Positions 33,613-36,926 of a stretch of DNA of 64,000 bases are shown piece after piece; the first letter of the stretch is position 1; every line of letters starts with the position of its first letter. The notes beneath the pieces were generated by a model that saw only the letters and a list, made by a program, of their open reading frames with translations, had not been told where the DNA came from and ran no database searches. Origin of the DNA: Thermococcus sp. 18S1. GTDB lineage: Archaea; Methanobacteriota_B; Thermococci; Thermococcales; Thermococcaceae. The stretch spans positions 1,116,001-1,180,000 of the forward strand of contig NZ_SNUU01000001.1 in NCBI RefSeq assembly GCF_012027645.1, in the 5' to 3' direction. The position numbers and the translations under genes were made by a program.

Positions 33613-33622
33613 GGTGATACCG

Positions 33623-35569
33623 GTGATAAGAAGAGAGACCTTCGTCGAGGATATACTACGCGATATAAAAGCTGTAATAAGCCAGATGGTTCCGCCCGAG
33701 GCGAGGATAACCGACGTTGAGTTCGAGGGTCCCGAGCTGGTCATATACGTCAAGAACCCGGAGGCCATAATGCGGGATGGGGAGCTAATAAAGAACCTCG
33801 CCAAGGTTCTTAAAAAGCGCATAAGCGTCCGCCCCGACCCGGATGTCCTCCTCCCGCCAGAAAAGGCGGAGGACATGATAAAGGCCCTGGTTCCGCCCGA
33901 GGCGGAGATAACCAACATAAGCTTCGACCCGTCCGTTGGTGAGGTCATCATAGAGGCCAAGAAGCCGGGCCTCGTCATCGGCAAGAACGGCGAGACGCTC
34001 CGTCTCATCACTCAGAAGGTCCACTGGGCGCCGAGGGTCGTCAGGACTCCACCGCTCCAGAGCCAGACCATCTACTCGATAAGGCAGATACTCCAGGCCG
34101 AGGCCAAGGACAGGAGGAAGTTCCTCCGCCAGGCGGGCAGGAACATATACCGCAAGCCGGAGGTCAAGAGCGATTGGATACGCATAACCGGCCTGGGAGG
34201 CTTCCGTGAGGTCGGAAGAAGCGCCCTTCTTGTCCAGACCAACGAGAGCTACGTTCTGGTCGACTTCGGTGTCAACATAGCTGCCCTCCGCGATCCCAAG
34301 AAGGCCTTCCCGCACTTCGAGGCTCCGGAGTTCCGCTACGTCCTCGACGCGGGTCTCCTGGATGCCATCATCATAACCCACGCCCACCTTGACCACAGCG
34401 GAATGCTGCCCTACCTCTTCCGCTACAAGCTCTTCGACGGGCCGATATATACGACTCCCCCGACCAGGGATCTGATGGTTCTTCTCCAGCAGGACTTCAT
34501 CGAGATCCAGAAGATGAACGGTGTCGAGCCGTTGTACAGACCGAGGGACATTAAGGAGGTCATAAAGCACACGATAACCCTCGACTACGGCGAGGTCCGC
34601 GACATAGCCCCGGACATGAGGCTCACCCTTCACAACGCCGGCCATATCCTCGGATCGTCCATAGTGCACCTTCACATAGGCAACGGACTCCACAACATAG
34701 CCATAACCGGCGACTTCAAGTTCATCCCGACCAGGCTCTTTGAGCCGGCCGTCAGCAGGTTCCCGCGCCTCGAGACCCTCGTCATGGAGTCCACCTACGG
34801 TGGAAGCAACGACTACCAGATGCCCAGGGAGGAGGCCGAGAAGAGGCTCATAGAGGTCATCCACCAGACCATCAGGCGCGGCGGAAAGGTGCTCATCCCC
34901 GCCATGGCCGTCGGTAGGGCGCAGGAGATAATGATGGTACTCGAGGAGTACGCAAGGATAGGCGGCCTCGAGGTTCCGATTTACCTGGACGGCATGATAT
35001 GGGAGGCGACTGCCATACACACTGCCTATCCGGAGTACCTCAGCAGGCACCTGCGCGAGCAGATATTCCACGAGGGCTACAACCCGTTCCTCAACCCGAT
35101 ATTCAAGAGCGTCGCCAACTCACGCGAGAGGCAGGAGATCATAGACTCCGGCGAGCCGGCCATAATCATAGCCACCTCGGGCATGCTCGTCGGCGGGCCG
35201 AGCGTTGAGTACTTCAAGCAGCTCGCCTCAGACCCGAAGAACAGCATGGTCTTCGTGAGCTACCAGGCGGAGGGAACCCTCGGAAGGCAGGTGCAGAGAG
35301 GTTTACGCGAGATACCTCTCGTCGGAGAGGGCGGAAAGACGGAGGTAGTCAACGTCAACATGGAGGTTCACACCATAGACGGCTTCTCCGGTCACGCCGA
35401 CAGGAGGGAGCTCATAAGCTACATAGCCCGCCTGAGGCCCAGGCCGGAGCGCGTCATAACCGTCCACGGCGAGGCCCACAAGTGCCTCGACCTCAGCACG
35501 AGCATACACAAGAAGTTCGGCCTCTCAACGCGCGCTCCGAACAACCTCGACGCCATAAGGCTCAAGTGA
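33623..35569 (+). CDS. fttA: Transcription termination factor FttA / aCPSF1 ribonuclease
   Basis: This 648-residue beta-CASP metallonuclease is homologous to CPSF73 and ends transcription in archaea by cutting nascent RNA. Two N-terminal KH-like domains (about 1-140, with the 'GLVIGKNGETLR' loop) are followed by a metallo-beta-lactamase core with HAHLDH at residues 253-258. Further ligands lie in 'AGHILGSS' and 'TGDFKF', and the beta-CASP domain closes with 'GFSGHADRREL' and 'VHGEAHKC'. The frame opens at a GTG at 33614, but GGTGAT there is the ribosome site for the GTG at 33623. It is co-transcribed with psmB. Confidence 0.93.
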   Translation: MIRRETFVEDILRDIKAVISQMVPPEARITDVEFEGPELVIYVKNPEAIMRDGELIKNLAKVLKKRISVRPDPDVLLPPEKAEDMIKALVPPEAEITNISFDPSVGEVIIEAKKPGLVIGKNGETLRLITQKVHWAPRVVRTPPLQSQTIYSIRQILQAEAKDRRKFLRQAGRNIYRKPEVKSDWIRITGLGGFREVGRSALLVQTNESYVLVDFGVNIAALRDPKKAFPHFEAPEFRYVLDAGLLDAIIITHAHLDHSGMLPYLFRYKLFDGPIYTTPPTRDLMVLLQQDFIEIQKMNGVEPLYRPRDIKEVIKHTITLDYGEVRDIAPDMRLTLHNAGHILGSSIVHLHIGNGLHNIAITGDFKFIPTRLFEPAVSRFPRLETLVMESTYGGSNDYQMPREEAEKRLIEVIHQTIRRGGKVLIPAMAVGRAQEIMMVLEEYARIGGLEVPIYLDGMIWEATAIHTAYPEYLSRHLREQIFHEGYNPFLNPIFKSVANSRERQEIIDSGEPAIIIATSGMLVGGPSVEYFKQLASDPKNSMVFVSYQAEGTLGRQVQRGLREIPLVGEGGKTEVVNVNMEVHTIDGFSGHADRRELISYIARLRPRPERVITVHGEAHKCLDLSTSIHKKFGLSTRAPNNLDAIRLK

Positions 35570-35594: not shown

Positions 35595-36926
35595 ATGAAG
35601 GTCCGCTGTCCCAGCTGCGGGCGCCTCTATTCTTCCCTTATTCCCCCAGGGTGCTCCTGCGGGGAGCGTCTGGAGGTATCCTATGATTACGAGAAAGTCG
35701 ACCCGTCCAGATGGCGGAACCGTGAACCCGGCGTCTGGAGATACCGGGAGCTTCTGCCGGACGTCCATGAGGTCGTGAGCCTTCGAGAGGGGGGCACGCC
35801 CCTCATAAGGGCCAAACTCGGCCGCGAGCTTGGGCTCAACGTCTTCATCAAGGACGAGACCAGGAACCCCACCGGCTCCTTCAGGGACCGTCTCGCGACT
35901 GTCGCAGTCTCTTATGGCCTTCCCCACGCAGAAAACGGCTTTGTGGTGGCGAGCAATGGAAACGCGGCAGCTTCCCTTGCCGCTTACGCCGCCAGAGCCG
36001 GCAGACCCGCCTACACCGTCGTGCCGAAGCTCGTGGAGCAGGGCAAGCTCAATCAGATAGTGGCCCTCGGGGCGAAGCTCATACGGTACGGGGAGAGCGT
36101 GGACGAGGGCATAAGCTACGCGGAGGGTCTCGCTGAGGGCAGGGGGCTCTACAACATCACCCCCGAGAGCAATCTCATCGGCCTGGAGGGACAGAAAACG
36201 CTGGCCTTCGAGCTCTGGGAGGATTTGAACCCGACGCACGTGATAGTCCCGACTGGAAGCGGCAGCAACCTCTACAGCATCTACAAGGGTTTCAAGGAGC
36301 TCATTGAGGTGGGCGCGGTTGACGAGATGCCCAAACTGATCGCCGTTCAGGCCGAGAAGTGCTCCCCCATAGCGAGCGAGGTGCTGGGCGTTGAGCCGCG
36401 GGCCGAGCCGACCAAGGCGCTGGCCCTGTACGTGAAGAGCCCCGTTATGAAAGAGCTCGCCCTGGAGGCTATACACGCCAGCAGGGGGACCGCTGTTCTC
36501 GTCGGAGAGGACGAACTCGACCTGGGGCAGCGGCTCCTTGCCGGGGAGGGAATATTCGCGGAGTACGCCTCTTCGGTTATCGTCCCTGCACTCCTCAAAC
36601 TGGCGGAGGAGAATTATTTCGAACGTGACGACAGGATAGCCCTTATAGTGACAAGTTCGGGCCTCAAGGGACACTACTCTGAGAGCAGGGAGAAATTCAC
36701 CGTCGGCGGAACCAAGCTCGAGATACTGAAGCTGCTGAGCGGGAGGAGCATGTACGGCTATGAGGTATGGGAGGCACTGGAGAAGCCGCTCAAGTACCAG
36801 GCCGTTTACCAGCACCTGCGCGAGCTCGAGAGCATGGGGCTTATCGAGGAGACCCACAGAAAGGGGAGACGGGTCTATTACGGGCTGACGGAGAGGGGCA
36901 GGAGGTTCCTTGAGACCCTGGGGTAG
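35595..36926 (+). CDS. Threonine synthase-like protein lacking the PLP lysine, with C-terminal winged helix
   Basis: This 443-residue protein has three parts. An N-terminal zinc ribbon 'CPSCGRLYSSLIPPGCSC' starts at residue 5. A fold-type II PLP-enzyme domain closest to threonine synthase spans about 30-360. From about residue 372 a PadR-like winged helix follows ('KLEILKLLSGRSMYGYEVWE', then 'ALEKPLKYQAVYQHLREL', 'GLTERGRRFLE'). The PLP-lysine motif reads 'NPTGSFRDR': residue 97, expected Lys, is Arg (AGG at 35883-35885). The phosphate loop ('TGSGSN') and substrate loop ('ASNGNAAAS') are otherwise kept. Catalysis is therefore doubtful; a ligand-sensing regulator is an inference. The start at 35595 is preferred over 35586/35589 because AGTGAT precedes it. 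Confidence 0.8.
   Translation: MKVRCPSCGRLYSSLIPPGCSCGERLEVSYDYEKVDPSRWRNREPGVWRYRELLPDVHEVVSLREGGTPLIRAKLGRELGLNVFIKDETRNPTGSFRDRLATVAVSYGLPHAENGFVVASNGNAAASLAAYAARAGRPAYTVVPKLVEQGKLNQIVALGAKLIRYGESVDEGISYAEGLAEGRGLYNITPESNLIGLEGQKTLAFELWEDLNPTHVIVPTGSGSNLYSIYKGFKELIEVGAVDEMPKLIAVQAEKCSPIASEVLGVEPRAEPTKALALYVKSPVMKELALEAIHASRGTAVLVGEDELDLGQRLLAGEGIFAEYASSVIVPALLKLAEENYFERDDRIALIVTSSGLKGHYSESREKFTVGGTKLEILKLLSGRSMYGYEVWEALEKPLKYQAVYQHLRELESMGLIEETHRKGRRVYYGLTERGRRFLETLG

Follow-up and report, generated by a model that had tools for sequence, protein, structure and literature searches.

The bacterial PLP-dependent GntR regulators of the PdxR and MocR-GabR type combine a winged helix with the fold of a PLP enzyme; in MocR proteins a GntR-type N-terminal winged helix is joined to a fold-type-I aminotransferase domain. 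Bacterial PdxR regulons include pdxST, pdxK, and pdxU, and MocR proteins have been described as "not present in Archaea" (PMC5320631). In the 64,000-nucleotide stretch of Thermococcus sp. 18S1 DNA analyzed here (the window), the gene at positions 35595–36926 on the + strand encodes a protein that likewise joins a winged helix to a PLP-enzyme fold. However, it is not a MocR protein: its enzyme domain is of fold type II, its helix is C-terminal and PadR-like, it harbors a zinc ribbon, and it has no lysine at the Schiff-base position. The preliminary description had suggested an invention separate from MocR, and the contrast between fold type II with a C-terminal PadR-like helix and fold type I with a GntR helix upholds that suggestion. 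Judged from sequence comparisons, the gene product would be a pseudoenzyme that descends from threonine synthase, senses PLP or a B6 vitamer, and represses vitamin B6 acquisition, a reading to which we assign a probability of about 0.83. The regulon resembles that of PdxR, with operators at pdxS and at a putative B6 transporter gene, and the best explanation is that the protein does in archaea what PdxR does in bacteria, using another PLP fold.

Threonine synthase (ThrC; NF004170/PRK05638) shares with this protein its fold and, as in the archaeal paralogues, the N-terminal zinc ribbon. In contrast to threonine synthase, the archaeal protein is without the Schiff-base lysine and the substrate residues and has a winged helix and B6 operators. 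Because the lysine and the substrate residues are two defining features of the enzyme, and both fail, the protein should not be filed as a threonine synthase. A fold-type-II PLP enzyme also takes part in repression in the CysK–CymR complex and in other moonlighting regulators of this fold type, but CysK is separate, active, and Lys-bearing, whereas the archaeal regulator would combine sensor and DNA-binding domain in one chain from which the lysine has been lost. The archaeal vitamin regulators RbkR and ThiR each consist of an enzyme domain and an HTH. The principle is the same, an enzyme connected with the cofactor itself being fused to an HTH and controlling the genes of that vitamin, but the enzyme folds and vitamins (B2 and B1) are others and there is no homology to the PALP domain. 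Both are named as predicted P. furiosus regulators (PMC10746257).

Architecture and loss of the Schiff-base lysine

The lysine-less protein with threonine-synthase fold and winged helix, our proposed B6/PLP-responsive repressor, is 443 aa long by ORF translation, with motif context KDETRNPTGSFRDRL; around residue 97 the motif reads DETRNPTGSFRDR. Arg97, encoded by AGG at 35883–35885 (+), aligns with the Schiff-base lysine (Thermus Lys61). The translation thus agrees with the preliminary description in coordinates, strand, and codon, and the N-terminal zinc ribbon and C-terminal PadR-like winged helix named there are also confirmed. The zinc-ribbon cysteines C5, C8, C20, and C22 (35607–35660, +) are invariant in 53 aligned members of the winged-helix family. 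They are followed by the PALP domain, of fold type II, at residues 61–353 (35775–36653, +), supported by Pfam (PF00291, 3.3e-66) and Foldseek, and the C-terminal winged helix occupies residues 370–443 (36702–36923, +), with PF03551 matching at 377–440 (1.7e-9). The AlphaFold2 model is confident (pLDDT 90.1), with a disordered, flexible linker between the two domains at residues 358–369 (36666–36701, +; pLDDT below 50). The best solved matches of the model in Foldseek are all threonine synthases (2d1f, E 2.4e-29; 6nmx; 1uim; E about 1e-28), identity to the Thermus and Mycobacterium threonine synthases is about 35%, and the NCBIfam "threonine synthase" equivalog NF004170/PRK05638 matches the full length of the protein with 747 bits. 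Across the family PALP is found in 53/53 members and the PF03551 winged helix, shared with PadR transcription regulators, in 49/53, a winged helix being present in all groups. However, the C-terminal dimerization helices that follow the winged helix in PadR proteins are missing, as the chain stops at residue 443 with a single short helix (433–442) in the model.

The same genome encodes two Lys-bearing threonine-synthase-like paralogues, candidates for the second, lysine-bearing threonine synthase that the preliminary description asked about: L002, with NPTWSFKDR, scores 183.8 bits against TIGR00260 (cut-off 167.1) and L003, with QPTGSFKDR, scores 551 bits against PRK08329 (cut-off 358). The NPTGSFRDR codon pattern has matches in 69 of the 115 genomes of the class, where the arginine is spelled AGG, AGA, CGC, CGT, CGA, or CGG; a read error or chance at 35883–35885 is therefore excluded. 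Full-length homologues occur in dozens of about 400 Thermoproteota genomes, and those fetched carry Arg, with one Met in the group, while a more distant winged-helix group (L310–L323) has Leu, Met, Ile, Val, Ala, or Thr at this position. Among 168 full-length homologous ORFs, a fetched set with duplicates included, Lys is present in 14, and 13 of these 14 have no winged helix. The exception, from genome G023 (L139), is the only one of the 53 nonredundant winged-helix members with Lys (2%). As a correction to the preliminary description, Arg97 is not an essential feature of the family, since distant members have six other residues there and a close orthologue, in G023, has Lys although the B6 operators are kept. 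This GSFKDR orthologue (L139:5735–7063) has a sister, in G022, with Arg, and G023 retains the operators of both pdxS and the PF07155 gene. In a tree computed with residue 97 masked, a branch parts the 53 winged-helix proteins from 12 enzymes with an SH-aLRT of 92 (below the 95 mark). By these comparisons, lysine loss in the winged-helix family is real and evidently old.

To describe the pocket, positions invariant in nine Lys enzymes were scored in the winged-helix family, in Thermus threonine synthase numbering. Retained are N87 (98%), the phosphate-loop G187 (98%), T317 (92%), D62, R63, E287, and K322, a set that, to judge from threonine synthase structures, holds the PLP contacts; lost are K61 (2%), T85 (4%), T88 (4%), N154 (0%), S155 (9%), R160 (0%), N188 (4%), and R242 (6%), a set that presumably holds the substrate contacts. 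In the Thermococcus sp. 18S1 protein, Asn123 (35961–35963, +) corresponds to Thermus Asn87, which we take to contact PLP O3′, and Thr353 (36651–36653, +) to Thermus Thr317, presumably the contact of the pyridine nitrogen. The phosphate loop at residues 221–225 (36255–36269, +) reads GSGSN, with G221 kept in 98% and G223 in 100% of members; the GNAGN of the enzymes is replaced by GSGSN or GSGGT in the family, resembling other fold-II phosphate loops. At residues 190–196 (36162–36182, +), the Asn154, Ser155, and Arg160 of the enzyme, which we assume to bind the substrate phosphate, are replaced by Pro, Glu, and Gly. With the PLP-contact set kept and the substrate set lost, the PLP site would therefore survive and the phosphohomoserine site would not. 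The fold matches also include 1d6s, a K41A O-acetylserine sulfhydrylase with PLP bound as the external aldimine of methionine, which provides a solved precedent for PLP binding when the Schiff-base lysine is missing.

Gene neighborhood and the PF07155 transporter

In Thermoproteota the regulator gene is followed by a PF07155 ECF-transporter S gene in 15 of 20 loci, and the S gene is also present at 6/6 further loci; four Thermoproteota regulator loci also carry an ECF A gene together with cluster c14, which matches no family and is probably the T gene. In the divergent group L310–L323 the S gene adjoins the regulator in 8 of 14 loci, with a variant operator similar to TATATAAGcTNNAGCTTATATA. 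In the 94 Thermococcaceae-family genomes, a strong PF07155 gene is found in 65/66 regulator-bearing vs. 13/28 regulator-less genomes. As a phyletic marker in Thermococcales, the presence of pdxS showed no tight link to the regulator.

The S proteins match PF07155 with 99.5 bits (Thermoproteota) and 132 bits (Thermococcus sp. 18S1). PF07155 includes the B6 transporters PdxU and PdxU2/HmpT (PMC9997740), and HmpT binds and carries pyridoxamine (PMC4860826). Among solved structures, HmpT (4hzu_S) alone is clearly related to the two archaeal S proteins, with E values of 3.8e-17 and 4e-11. In the two aligned proteins the HmpT ligand residues E41 (as D/E), Y120, N140, and Q143 are kept, but His84 is replaced by Lys and Gln87 by Glu in both. 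Because two of the six HmpT pocket residues thus differ, the B6 vitamer that these predicted transporters would carry is not certain. The Lys at the His84 position in the S proteins L166:2784–3392 and L112:8571–9302 might fit pyridoxal. In Thermococcus sp. 18S1 the gene immediately before the PF07155 S gene encodes a PLP-dependent class-III aminotransferase (PRK05769; L166:1356–2702), and a sequence similar to it precedes the S gene in several other Thermococcus genomes.

In Thermococcales the regulator gene stands behind the proteasome beta and beta-CASP genes. The gene directly upstream, for a beta-CASP RNA-processing nuclease (33614–35569, +), keeps this order in most regulator-bearing Thermococcales, and the two genes likely share a transcript. 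Of the 20 regulator-less genomes examined, 12 have c5-rpiA after beta-CASP, with no regulator between them. A functional link to the proteasome, beta-CASP, and rpiA neighbors was considered and rejected: because other genera have different neighbors and the order persists without the regulator, beta-CASP is a positional, not a functional, neighbor. At some Thermoproteota loci a Lys-type thrC, with hom and ilvD nearby, is transcribed divergently from the regulator. At L109, L110, and L112 a conserved cluster of ilvD, an ACT-domain protein gene, and the homoserine dehydrogenase gene converges on this thrC, which is divergent to the regulator side.

Operators of the B6 genes in two phyla

At both pdxS and the PF07155 gene of regulator-bearing Thermococcales, the palindrome TCAAGTTNNAACTTGA lies behind the TATA box or overlaps it. 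At pdxS the typical promoter site is TTTATAT-TCAAGTTTTAACTTGA, located some 25 nt ahead of the start; a second, degenerate copy often accompanies it. Allowing ≤3 mismatches, the pdxS operator is found in 20/20 regulator-bearing vs. 0/15 regulator-less genomes; in the 15 regulator-less promoters the TATA box is kept and the palindrome is gone. Upstream of the PF07155 gene, TTTCAAGTTwwAACTTGAAA lies beside or overlaps the TATA box, with the operator present in 23/26 regulator-bearing vs. 0/8 regulator-less Thermococcales. Operators at this gene are weak in three regulator-bearing genomes (G027, G050, and G062), and the Pyrococcus-like pdxS sites of G025 and G027 have 3 mismatches. The operators thus come and go with the regulator gene, with Fisher p values of 3e-10 (pdxS) and 9e-6 (PF07155 gene), though these genomes are not independent trials. 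Indeed, because the regulator was lost only twice on the Thermococcus tree, in a 19-species clade and in G079, the Fisher values overstate independence; an independent-pairs test across Thermococcus yields one or two pairs and lacks power. G079 (L193, L334) lies inside an otherwise regulator-bearing Thermococcus clade and has independently lost both the regulator and the PF07155-gene operator.

The 2-Mb genome of Thermococcus sp. 18S1 contains nine sites with ≤2 mismatches, six of them inside ORFs; the other three are in the PF07155-gene promoter (575757) and, in tandem, at pdxS (899955 and 899979). A class-wide scan with a relaxed pattern gave one match in this genome, at the PF07155 gene (575757), and second matches directly upstream of pdxS in other genomes of the class. 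In the window, no convincing site for autoregulation precedes the regulator gene itself.

The core AGTTNNAACT, common to the Thermococcales operators, also occurs in the B6 promoters of Thermoproteota. Upstream of the S gene, 12 of 21 loci have it at p ≤ 0.005 relative to shuffles, the sites including TAGTATAGTTACAACTATACTA (L108), TAGTATAGTTGTAACTATACTA (L117), and TAGTAAAGTTATAACTTTACTA (L115), and in the divergent group a related palindrome is seen, for example TATATAAGATTAAGCTTATATA in L313. No pdxS was seen in 32 of the 37 regulator-bearing Thermoproteota genomes, which would therefore depend on B6 uptake. In four of the five that carry pdxS its promoter contains the core, exact in L276 (TCAAGTTATAACTATA) and L278 (TTTATATTCAAGTTAGAACTTTA) and with one mismatch in L277 and L279; the L279 site is almost identical to the one at the S gene in that genome (L121). 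A de novo search for palindromes upstream of the Thermoproteota regulator gene itself gave none that was convincing.

Proposed mechanism and alternative readings

We propose that the PALP domain is noncatalytic, with the Schiff-base lysine and phosphohomoserine-binding residues lost and the PLP-contact residues kept, and that it most likely binds PLP reversibly, free or as a PLP–amino acid aldimine. Plentiful PLP would lead to closure of the small domain, by which an oligomer, probably a dimer, would come to sit with its C-terminal winged helices on the palindromic operator, TCAAGTTNNAACTTGA in Thermococcales with the core AGTTNNAACT in both phyla. The targets would be pdxS, encoding PLP synthase, and the PF07155 ECF S gene, predicted to serve PdxU/HmpT-like uptake. 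An operator that overlaps or follows the TATA box would block preinitiation-complex assembly, and it is from this position at the TATA box that we infer repression as the sign of control.

The preliminary description had envisaged a threonine-synthase fold turned into a sensor and regulator, and the PF07155 neighbor, the operators at pdxS and the PF07155 gene, and their absence where the regulator is missing lend support to this idea. Among the ligands it offered, PLP gains from the kept PLP contacts and the B6 operators, but phosphohomoserine does not fit, as the substrate residues are gone and there are no operators at the hom or thrC-like genes of Thermococcus sp. 18S1. A regulator of threonine or homoserine metabolism, sensing phosphohomoserine, threonine, or homoserine, would be in keeping with an ancestry in threonine synthase and with the divergent Lys-type thrC that, with hom, an ACT protein gene, and ilvD, is found in several Thermoproteota. 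However, T85, T88, N154, S155, R160, N188, and R242 are lost, the inspected thrC/regulator intergenic regions contain no operator, and none lies near hom (C1:1029557) or the thrC-like genes of Thermococcus sp. 18S1. Moreover, most Thermoproteota loci have the S gene and no adjoining thrC, and homoserine dehydrogenase, present almost throughout the class, does not follow the distribution of the regulator, making such a role very unlikely.

We consider it most improbable that the protein is an active enzyme, a threonine synthase or catalyst of another PLP reaction, with Arg or a different lysine taking over from the Schiff base and with a winged helix that is incidental. Most of the fold and of the PLP pocket is conserved, the NCBIfam model is a threonine synthase equivalog, and one natural member has Lys, but relatives have Leu, Met, Ile, Val, Ala, or Thr at residue 97, the substrate residues are lost, and Lys-bearing paralogues are present in the genome. 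A further reading accepts the B6 regulon as real but has its operator bound by another transcription factor of similar phyletic pattern, with the present protein a coeffector or unrelated. It draws on the fact that the link between operator and regulator in Thermococcales rests on two losses. Against this, in Thermoproteota the regulator gene and the S gene are neighbors and the operator lies between the two, the protein has a winged helix of its own, and the core is common to two phyla, so that this reading too has very little probability.

We therefore prefer the B6 repressor. We regard it as reasonably probable that an archaeal family of lysine-less threonine-synthase pseudoenzymes detects PLP with no covalent Schiff base and represses B6 synthesis and uptake; PLP-sensing transcription factors would then have originated a second time, in fold type II, and the family would provide the first B6 regulator of Archaea. 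Both family and fold would be new, whereas the kind, a vitamin-responsive regulator derived from a PLP enzyme, is known. In the open-access literature searched we found no description of an archaeal B6 regulator or of the PRK05638 family. The NCBIfam NF004170/PRK05638 "threonine synthase" equivalog model appears to describe the regulator family, not the enzyme, and many archaeal annotations are therefore probably wrong.

If this reading is true, many archaeal genomes already list, under the name "threonine synthase", the regulator of PLP supply that had been missing, and the NCBIfam equivalog name would be corrected. It would also assign likely B6 uptake genes in Thermoproteota without pdxS. 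More broadly, two unrelated PLP-enzyme folds would have been recruited convergently as PLP sensors, and the family would suggest why such a sensor may drop its lysine, as binding would then be reversible instead of covalent.
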